This document shows positions 8,163-43,494 of a DNA stretch of 64,000 nt, piece by piece. The stretch spans positions 2,232,001 through 2,296,000 of the forward strand of contig CP046866.1 of the NCBI GenBank assembly GCA_009789175.1. The letters run 5' to 3'. The notes below the pieces were generated by a model. That model was not told where the DNA came from, searched no databases, and saw nothing but the letters and a program-made list of their open reading frames with translations. Source of the stretch: Salinibaculum litoreum. GTDB lineage: Archaea > Halobacteriota > Halobacteria > Halobacteriales > Haloarculaceae. The number at the start of each line of letters is the position of its first letter. Position 1 is the first letter of the stretch. The translations under genes were made by a program, and so were the position numbers.

Positions 8163-10313
8163 TCAGGTGTGGACTATCGGGAGTAACTCGGCGAAGACCC
8201 GAACCACGTCCAAGACGAACGCCTGCGGGCTGTCGTCGCCGGGGAGTCGGTACGCGAAGTACTCGATTTTGGCAAGGAGCAGGAACACCGTTGTCGCACC
8301 GGCAGGTAGTGCCAGTCCGACCGCAGCGACGCGAGTGTCCTCGTACAGCGGCCAGCCTCCGACGACCAGTGCCGCCGCACCCGCGGTGGCGAGTCCGACC
8401 AGCGCGTGAAACTGCATCGCCTCACCGATTGCCGGATCCAGCACCGACAGCGCGGCCGTCACTGCGAGACCGCCGGCGACGACGGTCACTAGATATCCGC
8501 CGATCACCCACTGGGGGCTGTCCCGGAGTGCGCGCCGGACCACGCTACACCGGGCAACCCCGTAGACCAGAAGCGGCATCACGGGAAGGATATACCGGAC
8601 CGTGATCTGACTGTGCAGGGGAAGCCGCGGGAGGTAGATGAACGCGAACACGACCGCAAAGCCCGCGGCCAGGAGGTCGGTCTGTCGACGCGGCGTCGTG
8701 ATGCCCGCCCCGGCGACCCGCTCTCGAACCCTACGTAGCGCCGCGACCGGCAGCCAGACCAGCGCCGCCGCCAGCGGAAGCGATTCGAGAAGCGTCAACT
8801 CGATTGCCTCGTAGTCGTTGACGTTCATCGAGATGGTGGACACCTCGGACGGGATCTGACCGCTTCTGACGAACGTGTGGTACAGCCGCCGGGGCTGAGT
8901 GAGCGCGGCGACGCTCCGGTCGACCAAGTCGCCGACGAACGCGAGGAGGCTCCCGAGGAAGCCGACGACGGTAGCCAGAAGTGCCATCAGTGGATTCGCT
9001 CCCGACTCACCGCCATCCGAAGGTGTCGCGGTGGCGGTACCGCCGTTGCCCGCCCTGTCAGTCGCAGTTCCGGTGGCGTTCCCGGGCGTCGTAGTTGCGT
9101 TTCCGGGCGTTTCGGTCGCGTTCCCGGGACTGTTGATAGAGGAGGGGTCAGTTCCAGCGTCGGGCGTGGGTTCAGTCGTTCCGCCACCGTCGCTGGCAGG
9201 GTCGAACCCAAACTCGATACCGCCGGACCCGGAGAGAATTCGGGGCGACTGCAGCGGATTCCCCGAGATGAGCGTATTCAAGACAAAAAACGGGACCAGC
9301 GATAGCGCGAAGAGAACACCGATGACCACGAGCGAGCGGACCGAATACGTCGGTGCCGTCGCAAAATCGAGGACTGCGAAGACGACGAACAGGAAGAAAG
9401 CCTCGAACGGGTGGACGGTCGTGAACAGGCCAAGCGCCACGTAGGCACCGCCACGTGCGAGCGTGCCCCTGCGGTCGGGCTGGTTCCGGCTCACGGCGAA
9501 CAGATACAGCGCGAGGACGGCGACCCCGGCGGTGAGGACGTGGCGTTTCGGAATCGTCGCCCAGAACCCGACCGGCGTCGCCAGTACGACCGCGAGGCCG
9601 GCGGCGAGCCCGACCGACCGGCCGTGGAAACGGCGAAGTAAGCGATACAGAAACACGGCGATAAAGGCCGCGACGAACAGCGTGCTCAACTGGAGTGCGA
9701 TCAACGCGAGAACGCCATCAGGCAGGGCCGAGGCAGTCGCCAGGTTGCCCCCGAAGACCAGCAGCGCGACCCCGCTCAGGACGGTCCGCACCTCGTGCCG
9801 GCCGGTAAGTGTCCCGGCCTGCGTGGCGAAGGCAACCAGGGCCAGACTCCAGGCCCCAGCGAGCAAGAGTTTCGTCCCGACCAGGGCCGTACCCGCCTGC
9901 AACAACCATAGAAGGGGAAGGGCGAGCAGGACGTGACCGTAGTTGCGACCGTACAGCGTCCCGTCGACCTCGACGATGCCGGGCTGTGGGCCCAGAAACA
10001 GCGAGTACGGCGAGTCGACGAGCGCGAGTCGACCCTCCGCGACGTTTGCGAGTGCGTTCGCGACCGCCACCGTATCCTGAATGAAGATGCCAACGCGCCA
10101 CAGCGCGCCGAGCCAGAGGACTGCCCCTAAAAAAAGCGACAGTCCGAGTCGGTCGCCAAAGAGGAGGCGGCCGAGGCCTCGAACCCACTTCGCCGTCTGA
10201 CCAGTCGATATCGTCCCGCGGTCCACGCCGCGAACCGTCGACTGCCACCATCCGGAGTCCGGTGACTCCGCACCCTGTTTTCCGGTCGACGGCTCGTCTC
10301 TCTTCTCGTTCAT
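8163..10313 (-). CDS. Large polytopic membrane protein, GT-C glycosyltransferase-like
   Basis: 716 aa with many hydrophobic segments: roughly eight in residues 55-350 and five in 505-690. They flank an outward-type linker (about 373-440) rich in Gly, Thr, Ser and Pro. The linker carries PGNAT three times (N-glycosylation sequons at Asn398, 405, 412). The plan of a short loop after the first helix followed by many helices resembles GT-C/mannosyltransferase-type enzymes, but no catalytic motif could be confirmed. It lies inside the archaellum cluster, 4 bp after a small secreted protein, so a role in archaellin or envelope glycosylation is possible. Inference only. Confidence 0.6.
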   Translation of the reverse strand: MNEKRDEPSTGKQGAESPDSGWWQSTVRGVDRGTISTGQTAKWVRGLGRLLFGDRLGLSLFLGAVLWLGALWRVGIFIQDTVAVANALANVAEGRLALVDSPYSLFLGPQPGIVEVDGTLYGRNYGHVLLALPLLWLLQAGTALVGTKLLLAGAWSLALVAFATQAGTLTGRHEVRTVLSGVALLVFGGNLATASALPDGVLALIALQLSTLFVAAFIAVFLYRLLRRFHGRSVGLAAGLAVVLATPVGFWATIPKRHVLTAGVAVLALYLFAVSRNQPDRRGTLARGGAYVALGLFTTVHPFEAFFLFVVFAVLDFATAPTYSVRSLVVIGVLFALSLVPFFVLNTLISGNPLQSPRILSGSGGIEFGFDPASDGGGTTEPTPDAGTDPSSINSPGNATETPGNATTTPGNATGTATDRAGNGGTATATPSDGGESGANPLMALLATVVGFLGSLLAFVGDLVDRSVAALTQPRRLYHTFVRSGQIPSEVSTISMNVNDYEAIELTLLESLPLAAALVWLPVAALRRVRERVAGAGITTPRRQTDLLAAGFAVVFAFIYLPRLPLHSQITVRYILPVMPLLVYGVARCSVVRRALRDSPQWVIGGYLVTVVAGGLAVTAALSVLDPAIGEAMQFHALVGLATAGAAALVVGGWPLYEDTRVAAVGLALPAGATTVFLLLAKIEYFAYRLPGDDSPQAFVLDVVRVFAELLPIVHT

Positions 10314-26455: not shown

Positions 26456-27697
26456 TCAGTCGCCGAAGTCCCGCCACCCGGTAACGGCGACGGCCAGCCC
26501 GACCGAAAGCACAGCGGACGCCCCGAGGAAAGCGAACGGAATCATCGTCCCTTCGGTGGTCTCCAGAATCATCAGTTGTCGAAGCCCGCGATGGAAGTGA
26601 TAGAGCGGAAGGAGTTCTGCGACCGTCTGGAGGTAGTCAGGCATCAACTCGATTTCCCAGAAGACGCCGGCGAGAAACATCATCGGGAAGGCGATAGCGT
26701 TCCCCAGGCTCGTCGCTACGTCTGCGTCCTCGACGAAGCTGCCAAGCACCATCCCAAGACCGGCAAAGGTCAGCGCCCCGAGGACGATAAGCGACAGCGA
26801 CAGCGGGCCGGGGACGGCGGTCACGCCAAAGAGGAGGTGGGCGACCAGGACCATCACACCCGTGACGACGAGGGCGAGCAGGGTCTGCTGGATGACGTTT
26901 GCGAGAATCCAGTCGCGTTTGCGCAACGGCGTCGCCACCAGCCGTTTGAGCGTCCCATCGCTGTTGAAGCCGGCGACGACCGTCGTCATCGTGATAAGCC
27001 CGTTTATCATGACGACTGCAGCGATGAACGCCGGGAGATAGTAGTCGACCGAGCCCAGCGATGTCTGGCTGAGGTTGCCGGTGGTGACCCGCGAAGGTGG
27101 TTCCTCGATGCCGACAGCCTCGTCGTTGAACCCGCTGACGACGCTATCGACGACGCCACGGACCGCGGGCGCGGCCTCGTCGTCACTTGCAGTAAGCAGT
27201 GTCACTTCCGCGCCAGCGACAGTCGAGTTGTTCCCGCCTGCCCGGTCGAGTCCGCGCTCGATACGCGCCCGGTCGGAGTCGTTGAGTCGATCCTGGAACT
27301 GCGAGACCGTCGACTGTGTCACGTCGATACGGGCCTGGCCCGCGCTTGCCTGCACATTGTGTGCGAAGCCATCGGGTATCACGAGCACCCGTTTCGAGCC
27401 CCGGGAGTCGTCCTCGCGGGCCCACGTGCTGACGTTCCGGTCAGCGTCGAGTTCGCGGACGGTCAGGGCGTCGGTCTCGTTGAGTGACTCGACAAGCGCC
27501 TCCGAGAGGGCCGTCGGCTCGCCGTTCTCGATGTCGTTGTTCTGGACATAGACGGTAAACTCGGCGGAGCCACCCGCAAAGACCGTCGAGAAGATGACCA
27601 GCAGGATAATCGGAAAGAGCAGGGCGAAAAAGACGGCCTCCTTGTTTCGCAGCCAGTCTTTCGAGAGCGCGAGCAGGAGTGCACCGGTGCGTCTCAC
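26456..27697 (-). CDS. ABC-2 family transporter permease
   Basis: 413 aa. One N-terminal helix, a large extracellular domain (about residues 45-215) and five or six C-terminal helices, the classical ABC-2 exporter layout. The stretch TPLRKRDWILANVIQQTLLA is the conserved ABC-2 coupling region. The start overlaps the end of the ATPase gene by 4 bp, so the pair forms one exporter. Substrate unknown; drug or lipid-type efflux is typical. The operon promoter has a predicted TetR-type operator. Confidence 0.93.
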   Translation of the reverse strand: MRRTGALLLALSKDWLRNKEAVFFALLFPIILLVIFSTVFAGGSAEFTVYVQNNDIENGEPTALSEALVESLNETDALTVRELDADRNVSTWAREDDSRGSKRVLVIPDGFAHNVQASAGQARIDVTQSTVSQFQDRLNDSDRARIERGLDRAGGNNSTVAGAEVTLLTASDDEAAPAVRGVVDSVVSGFNDEAVGIEEPPSRVTTGNLSQTSLGSVDYYLPAFIAAVVMINGLITMTTVVAGFNSDGTLKRLVATPLRKRDWILANVIQQTLLALVVTGVMVLVAHLLFGVTAVPGPLSLSLIVLGALTFAGLGMVLGSFVEDADVATSLGNAIAFPMMFLAGVFWEIELMPDYLQTVAELLPLYHFHRGLRQLMILETTEGTMIPFAFLGASAVLSVGLAVAVTGWRDFGD

Positions 27698-28629
27698 GCC
27701 ATCTCACCCCGCTCGTCGACGCTGCCGCCGGCGAGTCGCAGGAAGACCTCTTCCATGCCGGCAGTGGTCAACTCGATAGAGTGGTCACCCGCGAGCCCGT
27801 CGACGCGGCCGAAGGTGTCCTGTGCCAGCCCACGGTCATCGAACAGCGCCACGAGGTCCCCCTCACTGTGGTACACTTCAGTTGCCGACTCCCGCAGAAC
27901 TGATTCGACAGGCGCGTCCTCGCCGTCGGCCTCGACACGGAGTTTCACCTCGCCCCCGTACTCCTCGACGAGCGCGGAGACGGTGTCGACGGCCTCGATA
28001 GCACCCTCGACCATCAGCGCCGCGCGGTCGGCGAGTGCATCGACCTCTTCCATGTAGTGAGTCGTCAACACGACGGTCGTCCCGAGGTCCGTCAGTCGCT
28101 CGATTTGTCCCCAGGTCGTCCGCCGGGCTGCCGGGTCCAGCCCCGTCGTCGGTTCGTCGAGAAACAGGACTTCGGGGTCGCTGACCAGCGCCATCGCGAT
28201 GCCGGTCCGGCGCTGGTATCCGCCGGAAAGCGATTCGAACGCAGTGTCAGCATACTCCAGCAAGTCGAGTTGCTCCAGTACCGCTTCGACGCCGAGTCCG
28301 TCGCTGTACATCCGCCGGGAGAGTGCGACGTTTTCCCGCACGGTCAGCCGGTCGAAGGTGTGAAACGACTGCGGGACGACGCCGATACGCTTCTTGATAG
28401 CGCGGGCTTCAGTCGTCACGTCGTGGCCCAGCACCCGGGCCGTACCACTCGTCGGCGTCCGGAGACACTCCAGTATCTCGACGGCCGTTGTCTTGCCCGC
28501 CCCGTTTGGCCCGAGCAACGCGAATATCTCCTCGCCTTTGATTTCGAAACTCGCGTCGTCGACTGCGACGACCGGCCCGTACTCCTTGCGCAGGTTCTCG
28601 GCCTCGACGACCGTCTCTCGTGTACTCAC
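27694..28629 (-). CDS. ABC transporter ATP-binding protein (exporter type)
   Basis: 311 aa from a GTG at 28629. Walker A GPNGAGKT (about residues 40-47), signature LSGGYQRR, Walker B VLFLDEPTTGLDP and an H-loop His (VLTTHYMEEVD) are all present, followed by the C-terminal extension common to drug-export ATPases. Pairs with the downstream permease (4-bp overlap). A TATA box at 28711-28704 and the dyad at 28718-28731 suggest TetR-type control. An 18-codon frame ends on its start codon. Confidence 0.94.
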   Translation of the reverse strand: MSTRETVVEAENLRKEYGPVVAVDDASFEIKGEEIFALLGPNGAGKTTAVEILECLRTPTSGTARVLGHDVTTEARAIKKRIGVVPQSFHTFDRLTVRENVALSRRMYSDGLGVEAVLEQLDLLEYADTAFESLSGGYQRRTGIAMALVSDPEVLFLDEPTTGLDPAARRTTWGQIERLTDLGTTVVLTTHYMEEVDALADRAALMVEGAIEAVDTVSALVEEYGGEVKLRVEADGEDAPVESVLRESATEVYHSEGDLVALFDDRGLAQDTFGRVDGLAGDHSIELTTAGMEEVFLRLAGGSVDERGEMA

Positions 28630-28679: not shown

Positions 28680-28717
28680 TGTCAGAAATCGAAAGGGCCA
28701 GCATAATAAACTTACTG

Positions 28718-28731
28718 AGTGAGTGCTTACT
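28718..28731. promoter_or_regulatory. Predicted TetR-type operator, site 1 (ABC exporter)
   Basis: AGTGAGTGCTTACT, one base different from site 3 (AGTGAGTGCTCACT, 33254-33267) and closely similar to site 2 (TGTGAGTACTCACT, 32318-32331). It lies 7 bp upstream of the TATA box of the ABC exporter operon, almost the same spacing as at site 3. Probably bound by the TetR protein encoded at 31726-32310. Confidence 0.6.
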
Positions 28732-28800
28732 AACTATCTGGAAGTGGGAACGACCCTCAAGGCGAAAAGAAACAATCTATGTCCAGATGACAGTTAATGT

Positions 28801-28986
28801 GTGAAGTCCCCTATCCACTGGTTTCCGGTCGTCGGCATCGCAGCAATGCTCGCATCCAGCACACTCGCGCTCAACGGACAGATAGAAAGCGCCCCCCTCG
28901 TCGGCAGCGTCGCACTGGCGGTGTATGCAACTCTGCGTGTGGTCGACCATGTCGACTCACCGACACTGGCCCGTCCGGTGGCCTGA
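28801..28986 (+). CDS. Small hydrophobic protein
   Basis: 61 aa from a GTG at 28801. It has two hydrophobic stretches (WFPVVGIAAMLASSTLALN and APLVGSVALAVYATLRV). An AT-rich patch about 25 bp before the GTG (around 28771-28779) could be its TATA box, giving a leaderless message. No family recognised. Divergent from the ABC exporter and convergent with 28992-29300. Confidence 0.45.
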   Translation: MKSPIHWFPVVGIAAMLASSTLALNGQIESAPLVGSVALAVYATLRVVDHVDSPTLARPVA

Positions 28987-28991
28987 GCGGC

Positions 28992-29300
28992 CTACGTGTC
29001 CATCGGGGTCCGTCTGTAGAGCAGGTACAAAAGGTAGAGACTAGAGCAGACGATGAGCAGTCCCGCTGCAAGCAGCACGAGACCGAGGCCACCAGACGAG
29101 TCCAGCAGCCAGAACTGGAGCAGTTGAACCCCGACCAGGAGCGCGAACCCGGAGAGGAGTGTCCAGAGAATCTTCCCCACGAGCGAGGACAGTTCGTCGC
29201 GGACGGCGCGGCGCACCAGCCGCTCGATATCGTCTTCGCGCCGAGCCGACCGCTCGGCATCGTGCTCACGGCGTTCGGGCTGAGAGTCTTCGGAGGGCAT
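28992..29300 (-). CDS. Small two-helix membrane protein
   Basis: 102 aa. A charged N-terminal region (about residues 1-40, mostly Arg, Glu, Asp) is followed by two hydrophobic helices: ILWTLLSGFALLVGVQLLQF and LGLVLLAAGLLIVCSSLYLL. No family recognised. Convergent with the small hydrophobic gene upstream of it, 5 bp apart. Likely real; role unknown. Confidence 0.65.
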   Translation of the reverse strand: MPSEDSQPERREHDAERSARREDDIERLVRRAVRDELSSLVGKILWTLLSGFALLVGVQLLQFWLLDSSGGLGLVLLAAGLLIVCSSLYLLYLLYRRTPMDT

Positions 29301-29401
29301 GGCGGTTGTGTCCTACCACCGGAAAGATGGACATAAAGGTGTGTATGGCGGGCCGGAAGTGACGCGACGAAAGACGCCAGGCAGTCGGTACACCGTCGCT
29401 G

Positions 29402-29638
29402 TCAGTCCGGACCGCCCGCGAGCCACGCCATCTCCTCGCGGAGTTCCGACTCAGTCACACCGAAGAACTCGGCAGCGTCGGCAAAGGAGAACTCGTTGGG
29501 GTCCTTGCCAAACCGGAGTGCTGTCAGGCGGGCGTACTCGCGTTCGGAAATGGTGTCCGCATCGAGTTTTGCCTGTAGGCGGCGTTCCTCCGCCGTCGGG
29601 GTTCGCGAGAGCGAATCGCTGTCCTCACCGTCTGTCAT
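29402..29638 (-). CDS. Small haloarchaeal cytosolic protein
   Basis: 78 aa from the ATG at 29638 (MTDGEDSDSLSRTPTAEERR). It is mostly helical and acidic, with a possible helix-turn-helix in SFADAAEFFGVTESELREEM. Its first 14 bp overlap the 3' end of the aminopeptidase gene, so the two are probably co-transcribed. No named family recognised. A longer frame reaching into the aminopeptidase gene is a shadow. Confidence 0.65.
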   Translation of the reverse strand: MTDGEDSDSLSRTPTAEERRLQAKLDADTISEREYARLTALRFGKDPNEFSFADAAEFFGVTESELREEMAWLAGGPD

Positions 29639-30728
29639 GTTCCCACTGGAAGGTGCCATCGCGCTGGATGACCTCGCCGTCGACTTCGATTGTCGTACCG
29701 TCCTGGCGCATATCCGTGATGAGGTCGACGTGGACGGCGCTGTCGTTGCCGGAGTCGCCATCAGGCAGACAGGCGTCGTAGGCCCGACCCAGCGCGAGAT
29801 GGACGGTACCGTACATCTTCTCGTCGAAGAGAATCTGTCCCGTGGAGCGGTCGATGCCGCGGTTCATCCCGACGCCGAGTTCACCCAGTCGCTTCGCGCC
29901 GCCATCGGTATCGAGGATAGCCGCGATGACCTCGCCGCCGGCCTCGGCCTCCCAGTCGACGACGACGCCGTCTTTGAACACCAGTCGAACCCCCTCGACG
30001 CGGGTCCCGCGGATGGTCATGGGCACGTCGAAGACCACCTGCCCGGCCGTGTCGTAGGGGGCGGTGAACACCTCACCGCTCGGGAGATTGTGGGAGTCAT
30101 CAGCGACGCTGGCAGTGGAGTTGACAGCCGTCCGGCCGTCGATGAACATCGTGAGGTCCGTCGCGTCGCCTTCCTTTCGGATGCGAACCTCACTGCCCTC
30201 GTCGAGAATCTCTTTTAATTGTGCCATCTCCTCGGCGAGGCTCTCCCAGTCCCGGAGGACGGCGTCGTAGACGAACTCGCGGTAGGCCTCGACACTCATC
30301 CCCGCCTGCTGGGCCATCGCCCGCGTGGGGTGGACCGTCGAGACCCAGTCGGTGTCCAGTCGGGCCTCCCGAATCCCCTGGCGGGCCTGTGCGTACGCCT
30401 GCCGGCGCTCGTCCGGCACGTCGGCTGTGGCGCTCGTGTTGCGCGTACCCCGCAGAGAGAGGACGCTGTCGGCGCGCTCGTATAGCTCGCGCTGGTAGTC
30501 GGGGTCGGTATCGAACTCGCCGTCGTGGGCGCGAAGGTAGGCGCGAGTCAGCTCGTCGCTGTCGTAGGTCGCAAGCAGATTGGCCTCGCGCTCACCGAGC
30601 GCTCTGGCAACGGCGACCCCGAGTTCGTGGGCACCCTCGCCGACGCGGAGGACGACATCGTCGCCGGCATCGATGCGAGCGCTCCAGTCCACGAGTACCT
30701 CGGCGTGGTCGCGAATGCGCTGGTCCAT
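29625..30728 (-). CDS. M29-family aminopeptidase (aminopeptidase T-like)
   Basis: 367 aa, the usual length. Family blocks are visible: LRVGEGAHELGVAVARALGE, DWVSTVHPTRAMAQQAGMS and LPSGEVFTAPYD, then ELGVGMNRGIDRSTGQILFD and GTVHLALGRAYD, which hold the metal ligands Glu/His/Asp of the M29 centre. A metal-dependent exopeptidase that works on free peptides in the cytosol. Overlaps the next gene by 14 bp. Confidence 0.9.
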   Translation of the reverse strand: MDQRIRDHAEVLVDWSARIDAGDDVVLRVGEGAHELGVAVARALGEREANLLATYDSDELTRAYLRAHDGEFDTDPDYQRELYERADSVLSLRGTRNTSATADVPDERRQAYAQARQGIREARLDTDWVSTVHPTRAMAQQAGMSVEAYREFVYDAVLRDWESLAEEMAQLKEILDEGSEVRIRKEGDATDLTMFIDGRTAVNSTASVADDSHNLPSGEVFTAPYDTAGQVVFDVPMTIRGTRVEGVRLVFKDGVVVDWEAEAGGEVIAAILDTDGGAKRLGELGVGMNRGIDRSTGQILFDEKMYGTVHLALGRAYDACLPDGDSGNDSAVHVDLITDMRQDGTTIEVDGEVIQRDGTFQWEHDRR

Positions 30729-30767
30729 ACCGCTGTCTCGGCCCGCCGGAATAAATGCACTCGGGGG

Positions 30768-31637
30768 TTACAGCCGGGTCCCGACTTCGCCAAGCGGTTT
30801 CTCGACCGTTCCATCGGGCGTCTTGACCTCGACTGCCGTCCCGGCGTCGATGCCAGTGAACATGAGATGGAGGCGGTAGCTCCCATCGGACTGTATGGGC
30901 GCGGCCTCGTACTGGCGGGCGGCGCTGGCCCAGACGTACTCCCCGGCGTAGTCAGCGTCGGTGCGACCGGTAATCTCCCACTCCGACAGGGAGGCCTGCG
31001 TATCCGGGGCGAAATCGGTGCCTGCCATCGGGTAGTCGCGGTCGTACCAGGTGTTCGGCCGCCCGAGGAACCCCTCGTCGAGAGCGTATACGTCCTCGAA
31101 GCCGGCCTTCTGGAGTCCAGCCGCCCGGATGGAGGAGAGATGGTGCGGACAGCCACAGTAGGTCACCACGCGGTCGGCGAAGGGCCACCCCTCGATACCA
31201 CCGCCCTCGGCACCGCGTTGTGCGGGCGAGAGGACCGAGCCGTAGACGTGTGCCCGCTTGTACTGTTGGGCCCCGCGGGCGTCGACGACGCGTGCCTCCC
31301 CGCGATGGTACCAGCGCTGGACGACATCGATGGGGGCGAGCCGAACCGTCTCGCCCTCGACATCGACCGTGTCGAACGTCGACGGGTCGGCGTCGGGTGC
31401 CGACGGGTCCTCTGCCATCTCCGGCGGATAGCCGTCCGCTGGGCTCCCGTCGGTCGGGTAGTCACCGTTAGTGACGAACGTCGTCTCCATCGTCCCCGGG
31501 TGCTCGAACGGGGCGCTCCCTGGCGGGGACGTGTCGCCAGCAGGCGTCTCCGTCCCGTCGGACTCCGAGCTACCCGTACAGCCAGCCACCGCGCCAACCA
31601 CCCCAACAGCTGTTGCGAGATACGTACGTCGCTTCAC
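30768..31637 (-). CDS. Rhodanese-domain Tat lipoprotein
   Basis: 289 aa from a GTG at 31637, giving VKRRTYLATAVGVVGAVAGC, a twin-arginine signal with lipobox AGC; an upstream ATG at 31685 would bury this signal. The mature part has a Ser/Thr/Pro-rich spacer and then a rhodanese fold (about residues 105-200, VVDARGAQQYKRAHVYGSVL). The active-site loop is YCGCPHHLSSIRA, with Cys where sulfurtransferases have the persulfide site. A C-terminal beta domain follows. Probably works outside the membrane; substrate unknown. It is followed by the M29 gene after a 39-bp gap. Confidence 0.85.
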   Translation of the reverse strand: MKRRTYLATAVGVVGAVAGCTGSSESDGTETPAGDTSPPGSAPFEHPGTMETTFVTNGDYPTDGSPADGYPPEMAEDPSAPDADPSTFDTVDVEGETVRLAPIDVVQRWYHRGEARVVDARGAQQYKRAHVYGSVLSPAQRGAEGGGIEGWPFADRVVTYCGCPHHLSSIRAAGLQKAGFEDVYALDEGFLGRPNTWYDRDYPMAGTDFAPDTQASLSEWEITGRTDADYAGEYVWASAARQYEAAPIQSDGSYRLHLMFTGIDAGTAVEVKTPDGTVEKPLGEVGTRL

Positions 31638-31725
31638 TGTAGCCGTCGATTGCGCGCTGAGAGAGAAAAGCTTGCCGCCCCGCATACTGCGAGTGTACTC
31701 CTCTGTAAAGGAACGACGAACAGTC

Positions 31726-32310
31726 TCAGGCGTCGTCGGCCAGCAGCGAGTCGATATAGCCCGACCAGCCCCGTTCGATGTCCGCGCCGACATCCATCTC
31801 AAGTGCGACGTGGAATCCCGTCGACCCGTCGGCAGCCGCCAGCAGGAAGGCGGCGCTCGCCCGCGGGTCCACGTCCCGGAACACCCCTGAGTCGACCCCC
31901 TGGCGGACGATGCCGGCAAAGAGTTCGAGCGTCGCCGACTCCAGTCCGAGCAGTGGCTCCCGCAGTGTCTCGTTGTGTGGGGCATGCGAGAGCAACTCCA
32001 TGATAGCGACGTGGACGCCGGCGTCCTCGTCGTCGGGAGAGAGAAAGAGGTGGTCACAGGCCGCCCGGAGTTGCTGTTCGGGGCCGCCGTCGATGGCCGC
32101 CAGTTCCTCGCCCAACTGGCCGGCCGTGTGTTCCAGAAAGGCCGCAATCATCTCGTCTTTCGTGTCGTAGTAGTAGTAGAGGCCAGCCTCGCTTTTCGCG
32201 TAGTGCTCCGCAATTTTCGCGGTCGTGAGCCGCTCGTAGCCGTGTTCTGCGAGGGCATCCCTGACGGCATCCGCAATCTCGGCGCGGGCGTCCGGCGAAA
32301 TGTCGGCCAT
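31726..32310 (-). CDS. TetR/AcrR-family transcriptional regulator
   Basis: 194 aa from the ATG at 32310 (MADISPDARAEIADAVRDAL); longer in-frame extension reads through the upstream genes and is spurious. The N-terminal DNA-binding domain has the TetR helix-turn-helix YERLTTAKIAEHYAKSEAGL followed by YYYYDTKDEMIAAFLEH. The C-terminal ligand domain is helical. A dyad (32318-32331) lies 8 bp upstream of the start, so autoregulation is likely. Two similar dyads precede the ABC exporter and SHOCT operons, its probable targets. Ligand unknown. Confidence 0.93.
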   Translation of the reverse strand: MADISPDARAEIADAVRDALAEHGYERLTTAKIAEHYAKSEAGLYYYYDTKDEMIAAFLEHTAGQLGEELAAIDGGPEQQLRAACDHLFLSPDDEDAGVHVAIMELLSHAPHNETLREPLLGLESATLELFAGIVRQGVDSGVFRDVDPRASAAFLLAAADGSTGFHVALEMDVGADIERGWSGYIDSLLADDA

Positions 32311-32317
32311 ACCGGTG

Positions 32318-32331
32318 TGTGAGTACTCACT
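32318..32331. promoter_or_regulatory. Predicted TetR-type operator, site 2 (tetR autoregulation)
   Basis: TGTGAGTACTCACT, containing the perfect 12-bp palindrome GTGAGTACTCAC (32319-32330). It lies just before the tetR ATG (32310), where it would block initiation of a leaderless message. It shares the GTGAG-n2-CTCAC core with site 3 and, with one mismatch, site 1. Confidence 0.65.
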
Positions 32332-32341
32332 CGCTTGTAGG

Positions 32342-32899
32342 TTACGCTGTCGTGTCGGGCGGCTCGACCGGAGGGTCGTCTTCCTCGCCATCGATGCGGC
32401 CGGCTGCCGACCGGTCCTGTCCGGTCGCCTCCACCAGGGTCGTTCCATCGGCCCTACCCAACCCGCGTGGCGGGAGGTGATTGTACACCGACTCGTGACT
32501 GTCGACGCGGTAGGTCTCGTGCCAGATGCCGACCGAGCCGTCGGTCTGTTCGTTGTACTCGGCCCACGCATCCAGATGGAGGCAGTCGCTGTCGCGGGCG
32601 TACGCCTGAAGGTCTTCGAAGGAGTCCCAGTACTGGACGAAGCCGATGCCACGGGGCGGCGAGAGAAATCCCCAACTCCCAAGCAGGCCCGACTCAGGGT
32701 CCCCCCGGAGCTCCCGGACCATTCGCGGGGCGGCGAGGAAAATGGGGAGCCAGCGGTGGACCTTCCAGAAAGCGTTGATGCGCATCCCGATGAGAAAGAC
32801 GACCACGTCCTCGTCGCGGTCGGCGTGGACTCGCCCTCGGGAGTCCGGCCCGGACAGCAGCCCCTGGATGCGCTCACCGACAGCAGCGAGACGGCTCAT
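32342..32899 (-). CDS. DUF4188 (monooxygenase-like) protein
   Basis: 185 aa. The DUF4188 signature [20 protein letters not shown] starts at about residue 32 and the partner segment [20 protein letters not shown] follows, a dimeric alpha/beta-barrel like that of small heme- or quinol-type monooxygenases. Function is not established for the family. The C-terminal ~40 residues are acidic and probably disordered. Start overlaps the SHOCT gene stop by 4 bp, so they form one operon, controlled by operator site 3. Confidence 0.88.
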
Positions 32900-33219
32900 C
32901 GCTGCCCCTCCGAGAGAATCCGCTCCAGTTCGGCTTCGAACTCGGCCTCGCCGATGTCGCCGTCGACGTATCGCTCCCGCAAGTCATCGAGCCGGTCGGT
33001 ATCGTCGTCGGCCTCCGCCCGCCGGGCCGCGTAGCCGATGCTCAGCGGAAGGACGACACCGTAGCCCAGCGGCCAGACCAGCCACGCCATCGGGAGGCCA
33101 GCCGCCGTAGCCGTCAATCCGACCGCGAGTACGCCCATCGACACGAGGCCGGCAACCGCCCCAGTTCGGGCAGCAGCGTCAGTGGTCTCCGTAATCTGGT
33201 AATGCGAGTATGGTTTCAT
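32896..33219 (-). CDS. SHOCT-domain small membrane protein
   Basis: 107 aa. Two hydrophobic helices (about residues 20-65: [19 protein letters not shown] and [20 protein letters not shown]) are followed by a short C-terminal SHOCT domain ([20 protein letters not shown]). A TATA box (TTTTATTG at about 33250-33243) and operator site 3 lie immediately upstream, so the start is close to the 5' end of the message. SHOCT domains occur in many contexts; function unknown. Co-transcribed with the DUF4188 gene. Confidence 0.88.
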
Positions 33220-33253
33220 AGGAACGACTACAGCCGCCAGCGCAATAAAACTT

Positions 33254-33267
33254 AGTGAGTGCTCACT
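33254..33267. promoter_or_regulatory. Predicted TetR-type operator, site 3 (SHOCT-DUF4188 operon)
   Basis: AGTGAGTGCTCACT, dyad arms AGTGAG and CTCACT with a 2-bp centre. It lies just upstream of the TATA box for the SHOCT gene (start 33219). 13 of 14 positions match site 1. The spacing to the TATA box is nearly the same as at site 1. Confidence 0.65.
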
Positions 33268-33327
33268 CAGCAGAGAGCCTGTACAGTGGGCAACTGTGTT
33301 TTTGTGGCAGGCTGTCGAGAGGTCAGT

Positions 33328-33846
33328 ATGGGACCGACAGGCATGGCAGTAGTGAGGACGGTACTGCAGTTCAACCCGGAAGCACCGCCGGGACCGACGG
33401 TGGGCCCCGGTGTCGGCCTCGGGGGCAGTGCCATCGGTGCCTTCCTGACGACGCTATTGGTCGGCGCAATCATGATTGCGGTGGCCCCGGGGTACGTCGA
33501 GCGGATGGTCGAGACGGTCGCGGACGACGTGGTGAATTCAGTCATCTACGGCGTGGTCGCGCTCTTCGCGCTGGTTCTCGTGACGCTCTTGTTGTTTATC
33601 ACCATCGTCGGTGTCCTCGTGGCGATTCCGCTGGCTATCGTCGCAGGGGTCGTGTGGGCTGTCGGGGCCGCCATCGCCTTCATCGCCATCGGGGACCGGC
33701 TGGTCGGACACGACGATGGGTGGGCGAAGCCGCTCGTGGTCGGCGCAGCCATCAACGGCGGACTGGCGCTGACCGGTATCGGCGGCCTCGTCTCCTTCGT
33801 CGTCGGCGCTGCCGGGTTCGGGGCGGTGCTGGTGGACTACCAATAG
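33328..33846 (+). CDS. Polytopic membrane protein
   Basis: 172 aa from the ATG at 33328 (another ATG at 33343 is possible). Four hydrophobic helices are visible (about residues 30-50, 67-88, 90-115, 135-165), e.g. GAFLTTLLVGAIMIAVAP and VVALFALVLVTLLLFITIVG. The N-terminal part is Gly/Pro-rich. No family recognised beyond a general resemblance to bactofilin-neighbour or DUF8173-type haloarchaeal membrane proteins, which I cannot confirm. Divergent from the SHOCT operon. Confidence 0.7.
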   Translation: MGPTGMAVVRTVLQFNPEAPPGPTVGPGVGLGGSAIGAFLTTLLVGAIMIAVAPGYVERMVETVADDVVNSVIYGVVALFALVLVTLLLFITIVGVLVAIPLAIVAGVVWAVGAAIAFIAIGDRLVGHDDGWAKPLVVGAAINGGLALTGIGGLVSFVVGAAGFGAVLVDYQ

Positions 33847-42021: not shown

Positions 42022-43494
42022 ATGCCCCTAGCAACCCCAGACACAGTCGTGTCCGACGCCTATGGCCCCGGCTTCCGGTCGCTGTCCAGTGAGGTGCACA
42101 ATCGTCGCCCGCCGGTCGAAGGGACGATTCCGGACTGGCTGTCGGGAACGCTCATCCGGAACGGCCCCGGCCGCTTCGAGGTCGGCGACACCCGCGTCAA
42201 CCACTGGTTCGATGGGCTGGCGATGGTGCGGCGGTACGACTTCGCAGACGGCGAGTTCCGCTACTCGAATCGCTTCCTGCGCACCGGGGCCTACGCCGAC
42301 GCGATGGACGGACGGCTCACCGGGCAGTTCGGCACCGACACCCGGGGCTGGCGGCGACTGCTCGATACCGTTCGCTCGCTTGGCCTGCCGGAGCCGACGG
42401 ACAACACCAACGTCCACGTCGTCCGCATCGACGGCGAGTACGTCGCACTGACCGAAGCCCCGCGACGGGTCGCCTTCGACCCCGAGACGCTCGAAACCCG
42501 CGGCGAGTTCGCGTTCGAGGACGACCTGCCCGAACACAGCACCGCCGCTCATCTCGTCGACGACCCCGCACGCGAGGAGGTGGTCGGCTTCAGCACCCAG
42601 TTCGGGCGCACACCGCAGTACCACCTCTACCGGGTCCCCCGAGGGAGCCGCCACCGCGAGCGCATCGCTTCCGTCGAGGCCAACGGGCCAGCCTACATCC
42701 ACGACTGCAGCGTCACCACCGACCACGTCATCGTCGTCGAGACGCCGCTGGTGCTATCGGTCCTGCAGGCGCTGAACCCCTTCTCGGAGGGAGCAATGGA
42801 CATGCTCCAGTGGGACACCGACCGCGAGACGCGGATACTCGTAGTCGACCGCGACACGGGCGAGCTGGTCGCCGACCCCACGCTCGACCCGGCCTTTTGT
42901 TTCCACCACGTCAACGCCTTCGTCGATGACAGCGAAGGAGGCGGCCCCAGGGACAGGCCAACAGCGTCCGGCGACGTGGTGCTTGACCTCGTGGAGTTTC
43001 CCGACGGGAGTATCGTCGATGCGATGTCGATGGCCGAGCTCGACGGCGACGGCTTCCCTGCAGTCCCCGATGCACGGCTCGTCCGCTACCGGGTCGACCC
43101 GGCAACGAACGCGGTCGACCGCTCGGTGCTGTACCCCGGCGGGATGGAACTCCCCCGCGTCACCCGGGAAGCCATCGGCGGCCGTCACCGCTACGCCTAC
43201 GGGCAGGCAACCGACCGCGACGGCGCGAACGGCCTCGTGAAAGTCGACTGTGAGACCGGGACCGCCCGCGAGTGGTGGGAACAATCCGTCTACGTCGAGG
43301 AACCGGTCCCGGTTCGTCACCCTGACGCCGATAGCGCCGACGACGGCGTCGTGCTGGCGACGGCACTGGATGTCGACCGGGGCCAGACTCTGTTACTCGT
43401 ATTCGACGCCGCGACGCTCGCAGTCCAGGCGCGAGCGTTCCTGCCCCACGCGGAGCCGTTTGGCTTTCACGGCCGCTATTTCGCCGACCTGTGA
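42022..43494 (+). CDS. Carotenoid cleavage oxygenase family protein
   Basis: 490 aa. The four iron-ligand His blocks of the RPE65/CCO family are visible: STAAHLVDD, YIHDCSVTTDH, CFHHVNAFVDD and FGFHGRYF. The start segment (GTIPDWLSGTLIRNGPGRFE) and WFDGLAMV are typical of the propeller's first blade. Such enzymes cleave carotenoids oxidatively, for example to retinal. No rhodopsin gene is in the window, so substrate is open. Isolated gene with its own promoter. Confidence 0.93.
   Translation: MPLATPDTVVSDAYGPGFRSLSSEVHNRRPPVEGTIPDWLSGTLIRNGPGRFEVGDTRVNHWFDGLAMVRRYDFADGEFRYSNRFLRTGAYADAMDGRLTGQFGTDTRGWRRLLDTVRSLGLPEPTDNTNVHVVRIDGEYVALTEAPRRVAFDPETLETRGEFAFEDDLPEHSTAAHLVDDPAREEVVGFSTQFGRTPQYHLYRVPRGSRHRERIASVEANGPAYIHDCSVTTDHVIVVETPLVLSVLQALNPFSEGAMDMLQWDTDRETRILVVDRDTGELVADPTLDPAFCFHHVNAFVDDSEGGGPRDRPTASGDVVLDLVEFPDGSIVDAMSMAELDGDGFPAVPDARLVRYRVDPATNAVDRSVLYPGGMELPRVTREAIGGRHRYAYGQATDRDGANGLVKVDCETGTAREWWEQSVYVEEPVPVRHPDADSADDGVVLATALDVDRGQTLLLVFDAATLAVQARAFLPHAEPFGFHGRYFADL

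Follow-up and report, generated by a model that had tools for sequence, protein, structure and literature searches.

Do three near-identical palindromes in one short piece of a haloarchaeal genome mark the regulon of a single TetR protein, and if so, what does that regulon control? The palindromes lie in a 64-kb window (the whole stretch of DNA analysed) within the 3.73-Mb genome of Salinibaculum litoreum. An earlier note on this DNA had placed one of them at the promoter of an ATP-binding cassette (ABC) exporter, one at a tetR gene, and one at an operon for a SHOCT membrane protein and a DUF4188 protein, the latter now termed monooxygenase af470-like. All three 14-bp dyads are present where that note put them, and each does stand at a promoter, upstream of the gene or operon named. 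We think it highly likely that the TetR protein represses its own gene (site 2), the SHOCT-monooxygenase operon (site 3) and the exporter (site 1) until a ligand releases it, with the exporter as a lineage-specific member. The predicted operators and their conservation give very good support to autoregulation and to control of the SHOCT-monooxygenase operon.

The 14-mer shared by the dyads, AGTGAGTGCTCACT, is the core of a longer 22-bp palindrome, ACTGAGTRAGYRCTYACTCAGT, seen from the sites in relatives. By itself the short motif proves little. With up to three mismatches it has 10 matches in the window against 4.5 expected, six of which are both strands of sites 1-3. With up to two mismatches the genome holds 20 matches at 17 places and a reversed control 26, so the 14-mer alone is not enriched, although three of the 17 places fall inside 4.55 kb, which chance would rarely produce (p ~0.003). 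The earlier note had proposed this genome scan and had taken many further hits as a sign against its own reading; such hits do appear, but the test is too loose, and the 22-bp operator answers it. A relaxed form of the longer pattern, ACTNAGTRAGYRCTYACTNAGT, allowed up to three mismatches, matches the genome at sites 1 and 3 and nowhere else, with one mismatch each, and its control finds nothing.

Because the 22-mer pattern was drawn up with all sites known, a matrix (22 columns, 29 sites) was built from the sites of other genomes only. Blind to the genome under study, it ranks site 3 first, site 1 second and site 2 third in the window, at 32.5, 31.4 and 15.2 bits. Its maximum in 30 Mb of simulated sequence is 25.8 bits, and about 0.02 scores of 15 bits are to be expected in 64 kb. 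All other 14-mer places in the genome reach at most 11.7 bits, and the majority lie inside called open reading frames. The matrix includes SHOCT-linked sites of other genomes, so that high scores at those sites are partly built in; the sites of the own genome and the negative loci are unaffected. A half-match, TACTCACTCG, had also been noted to recur at 28623 and 32324. It does occur twice in the window (0.19 expected), but the 28623 copy runs across the GTG that starts the exporter ATPase gene, has no partner arm and contributes nothing, and was rejected as an extra operator.

Comparison with relatives ties the operator to its regulator. Of the 148 genomes of the family, 28 have an ortholog of this TetR. 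All 11 genomes that carry a 22-mer with no more than one mismatch are among these 28 (Fisher p = 1.7e-9), as are 17 of the 20 operator genomes when two mismatches are allowed (p = 2e-12); both p values treat genomes as independent, which genomes are not (G040 and G041 are near-duplicates). Among 394 genomes of the order, 21 have a site with at most one mismatch, and the ortholog is found in 20 of these, in G024 as a split reading frame; the remaining one, G295, has a different tetR directly beside the site. The 22-mer precedes a SHOCT gene or a SHOCT/monooxygenase pair in 14 genomes (G012, G019, G021, G022, G024, G047, G049, G050, G079, G081, G146, G195, G363 and G374), with weaker versions in G145 (15.3 bits) and G149 (29.3 bits). 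In six of them (G012, G019, G021, G022, G079 and G363) the SHOCT genes, with or without the monooxygenase gene, lie far from tetR and yet have the operator. Because the operator is kept at such remote genes, a shared regulator acting at a distance would be the natural reading. Where a genome lacks this TetR, its SHOCT and monooxygenase homologs have no such site; their best score is about -0.3 bits, compared with 28-35. Many genomes carry a second operator between tetR and the next gene, which encodes a DUF2306-like membrane protein by a weak Pfam match (22.9 bits against 31.6). The link of TetR with the SHOCT-monooxygenase operator is kept across several haloarchaeal families, and the conserved targets, as predicted from these operators, are small membrane proteins (SHOCT, DUF2306-like) and a monooxygenase-like protein.

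The tetR promoter itself is similarly conserved. Before most close tetR orthologs (about 56-75% identity) the dyad stands a few bases ahead of the start codon, exact or with one to three changes (AGTGAGCGCTCACT and variants), in the position of site 2. Where tetR stands alone, a weak TATA-like region about 27 bp upstream precedes the dyad and the start codon follows it, which is the leaderless promoter form; for other genomes, genes and start codons are as we called them from open reading frames. A palindromic operator at the own promoter is a mark of the TetR/AcrR family, and site 2 is predicted to be one, kept in most close orthologs. Both the profile and the modelled fold place the regulator in this family, in agreement with the earlier identification of a TetR gene between the sites. 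Its TetR_N helix-turn-helix (PF00440) scores 35.2 bits against a cut-off of 24, and its AlphaFold model (pLDDT 93.8) has the all-helical two-domain fold of solved TetR proteins. The best PDB match is 3crj, a TetR of Haloarcula marismortui (TM 0.82-0.84, E 1.6e-8, 33% identity). The closest named relative found for the regulator is from Haloarcula pellucida (75%), and a protein-based scan of GTDB contigs returned only two haloarchaeal relatives.

Several findings weigh against this account. Comparing upstream regions in relatives, as had been proposed, shows the sites kept at most tetR orthologs and SHOCT genes, but in G067 tetR and the SHOCT-monooxygenase pair persist with no operator, and in six close relatives (G015, G023, G028, G029, G032 and G035) the dyad before tetR is changed and 22-mer targets are missing. 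Distant TetR proteins, about 30-39% identical, adjoin the same 22-mer in G295 and G327, so the site alone does not name its protein. Site 1 is without support from relatives. Dyads just upstream of a TATA box can also serve activators. Finally, the sequence itself gives the sites and shows them to be unique in the genome, conserved and found together with the regulator; TetR binding, repression rather than activation, and a ligand are predictions made from it.

Table 1. Predicted operators, promoter elements and genes of the putative regulon in the window (positions counted from its first letter)
Feature	Positions	Strand	Basis and remarks
ABC-2 type permease, same operon as ATPase	26456..27697	-	Pfam ABC2_membrane_3
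ABC exporter ATPase, GTG start	27694..28629	-	Pfam ABC_tran; best NCBIfam drrA, 241 bits vs cut-off 312 (DrrA-like, below cut-off)
TATA-like element TTTATTATG of exporter promoter	28702..28710	-	3 bp from operator; inferred from haloarchaeal promoter form
Site 1, strong 22-bp operator ACTGAGTGAGTGCTTACTAACT	28714..28735 (core 28718-28731)	.	ABC exporter upstream region; 31.4 bits; 1 mismatch to 22-mer
TetR-family regulator, 194 aa	31726..32310	-	Pfam TetR_N and TetR_C_6 above cut-off
Site 2, weaker operator, core only, TGTGAGTACTCACT	32318..32331	.	between monooxygenase-like gene and tetR; 15.2 bits
Monooxygenase af470-like protein (formerly DUF4188), 185 aa	32342..32899	-	Pfam PF13826, 123.9 bits, cut-off 25
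Small membrane protein with C-terminal SHOCT-like motif, 107 aa, first gene of operon	32896..33219	-	Pfam SHOCT 24.5 vs cut-off 27
TATA-like element TTTATTG	33243..33249	-	about 27 bp before SHOCT ATG, leaderless-type promoter; directly beside site 3
Site 3, strong 22-bp operator ACTTAGTGAGTGCTCACTCAGC	33250..33271 (core 33254-33267)	.	SHOCT-monooxygenase(-tetR) operon; 32.5 bits

The exporter, tetR and the SHOCT-monooxygenase operon all lie on the minus strand (Table 1), and the SHOCT profile exceeds its cut-off in several orthologs of the 107-aa protein. Whether the exporter belongs to the regulon is the point on which relatives are least helpful. Its orthologs in 12 other genomes of the family have no site in their upstream regions (best 0.1 bits), and none of those genomes has this TetR; of the 13 exporter genomes, only the own genome has the regulator. 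The comparison included one other genome of the genus, and this TetR is absent from it. Since both site and regulator are absent from the 12 other exporter genomes, site 1 would be a feature of this lineage and the exporter a lineage-specific recruit. The same absence, with an exporter-TetR pairing found in no other genome, favours the alternative of a TetR regulon limited to tetR and the SHOCT-monooxygenase operon, with site 1 as a chance or functionless match. We regard this as unlikely, given that site 1 scores above any position in the simulated 30 Mb and stands in the exporter promoter region. Its quality, its promoter position and the 3 bp between it and TTTATT, a spacing similar to that of targets in relatives, are why we consider site 1 likely to be a functional operator, a prediction with one genome as its evidence.

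Thus the earlier proposal of one TetR with three targets fares unevenly. Its own promoter and the SHOCT-DUF4188 operon do share an operator, the exporter very likely joins them in the own genome only, and repression itself is predicted. The accompanying idea of a general efflux-and-modification logic does not hold: the exporter is not a conserved member, so this is not what the regulon conserves. Measured against efflux-pump repressors, site 1 is a predicted operator in a pump promoter, but the pairing of regulator and pump is not kept in the 12 genomes with pump orthologs. A single gained operator may be how one lineage came to include an exporter in an old regulon.

How would the regulator act at these promoters? 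A ligand-free TetR dimer would bind the palindrome and hold down three promoters, with a strong grip at site 3 (the SHOCT-monooxygenase(-tetR) operon) and site 1 (the exporter) and a weaker one at site 2 (its own gene). On the gene strand, 3 bp separate the end of the 22-mer from TTTATT at site 1 and 0 bp at site 3, nearly the same distance, as had been noticed. Sites 1 and 3 directly adjoin the TATA box on its upstream side, where a bound dimer would get in the way of TBP/TFB. Site 2, which is 7 bp ahead of the tetR start codon, is placed between a weak TATA region and a leaderless-type start, where it would block polymerase. Because it occupies a 31-bp gap behind the monooxygenase-like gene, tetR can presumably also be transcribed from the site 3 promoter. 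The two strengths, a full 22-mer at targets and a weaker core at tetR, would allow repressor synthesis while the targets stay shut. A small, probably lipophilic ligand would then release TetR and switch on the membrane and monooxygenase genes, the exporter, and more repressor.

Repression is our best guess because the operator positions would hinder initiation and because FadRSa offers a precedent; activation at sites 1 and 3 is also possible. The protein might be an activator throughout, or an activator at sites 1 and 3 and a repressor at site 2, and the two classes of site do differ in strength and position. Archaeal activators also use the place just ahead of the TATA box, where sites 1 and 3 stand. 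We give this alternative a low probability, since in other genomes, for example G047, G049 and G050, the operator lies between the TATA box and the target start codon, where repression is plausible, and FadRSa, a studied archaeal TetR, represses (PMC6449355).

It is also conceivable that another TetR paralog of the own genome is the main binder of these sites, much as the distant TetR proteins of G295 and G327 adjoin the same 22-mer. This seems very improbable: the operator co-occurs across genomes with this ortholog, and the own-genome paralogs examined have other upstream palindromes, such as TTTGACTGACCAGTCAGTCAGT, that score at most 11 bits. Chance matches to a short degenerate motif, an idea to which the reversed 14-mer control lends some weight, can practically be dismissed, as the uniqueness of the 22-mer, the matrix scores, conservation and clustering refute it for sites 1 and 3, the position kept in orthologs counts against it for site 2, and the three sites are real beyond chance.

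A close archaeal comparison for a TetR predicted to repress genes from these sites is FadRSa of Sulfolobus acidocaldarius, which represses from few genomic sites, one of them just downstream of its own transcription start (PMC6449355). The present system resembles it, as predicted, in an archaeal TetR dimer, few genomic sites, a dyad motif, a site in its own control region and sites at promoters (PMC6449355). It differs in that FadRSa controls a fatty-acid gene cluster and responds to acyl-CoA, whereas here the targets are SHOCT and DUF2306-like proteins, an af470-like monooxygenase and an exporter. The NCBIfam model of Bacillus FadR (NF053878) scores 33.7 bits against a cut-off of 200, and no beta-oxidation genes occur among the target genes seen at operators in relatives. 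Like local efflux repressors of the QacR/TetR type, the regulator is a putatively autoregulated TetR near an exporter with a predicted operator in the exporter promoter; unlike them, its exporter linkage is found in one genome and its conserved targets are not pumps. The 22-mer at targets has repeated ACT/AGT steps, against a 14-bp core at tetR, which for QacR-like double-dimer binding is suggestive only. The Haloarcula protein 3crj is the closest solved match in fold and sequence (33% identity, TM 0.82), but it is a distant homolog by identity and known by structure only, its PDB entry giving no function. Two TetR paralogs of the own genome (L319 and L320), beside transporter genes labelled MATE-type from their sequence, are likewise haloarchaeal TetR genes with a palindrome just upstream. 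Their palindromes, about TTTGACTGACCAGTCAGTCAGT, are of a type unlike sites 1-3, with an operator centre of about TTGACTGACCAGTCAGTCAG and other targets.

To our knowledge, few archaeal TetR regulons have been defined. Comparative genomics here yields a sharp 22-bp operator, its regulator and a short target list, all directly testable in culturable haloarchaea, and provides a regulatory context for uncharacterised families (af470-like/DUF4188, SHOCT membrane proteins, DUF2306-like). In the titles and abstracts examined, no haloarchaeal TetR operator of this kind appears, and DUF4188 is represented by one database paper on cysteines in DUF proteins. From the target list we guess at a lipophilic, isoprenoid or quinone-like signal. 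We further speculate, as an idea that is rather unlikely to be right in full, that the conserved module (SHOCT, af470-like, DUF2306-like, DoxX-like, and sometimes BCD, beta-carotene 15,15'-dioxygenase, or RPE65-type proteins) makes up a haloarchaeal response that has so far escaped recognition. TetR would be its sensor for a lipophilic compound of isoprenoid, apocarotenoid or quinone-like nature, and individual lineages would have recruited exporters to it.

The operator also occurs beside other genes. It lies in a divergent promoter between SHOCT and BCD genes in G012 (L227), G021 (L225) and G146 (L054); the BCD gene is missing from that place in G019, G022 and G024. In G040 and G041, which represent one event, the gene that comes straight after tetR encodes an RPE65-type carotenoid oxygenase and has the operator in front of it (L074 of G041, 9044-9065), and elsewhere in G041 the operator precedes a DoxX-like membrane protein gene (L222, 4025-4046). 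The distant TetR genes of G295 (L315, 3608-3629) and G327 (L316, 3200-3221) have the 22-mer at their own start and are followed by a gene for a CPBP/Rce1-like membrane protein or an MFS transporter. In the window itself, an RPE65-type carotenoid oxygenase gene (42076-43482, plus strand) lies 9 kb from site 3; it has no nearby site and was rejected as a regulon target. Genes of unknown function at 28801-28986 and 33331-33846, both on the plus strand, diverge from sites 1 and 3 and could share those operators.

Other observations concern the tetR locus in relatives. In the six genomes with an altered dyad (clade L061-L066: G029, G023, G028, G035, G032 and G015, respectively) purL adjoins tetR, and the dyad is ACTGAGYGNCCACTCGG-like. 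The SEAGLYY recognition helix is unchanged there and does not explain the operator change. The tetR ortholog of G024 (L228, L104) is split in two frames by a frameshift or a sequencing error, and the SHOCT operator of that genome is still nearly perfect. A bacteriorhodopsin gene beside tetR in G086 (L068) was considered as a target and set aside, as it lies upstream of the tetR dyad and is transcribed towards it, not behind it.

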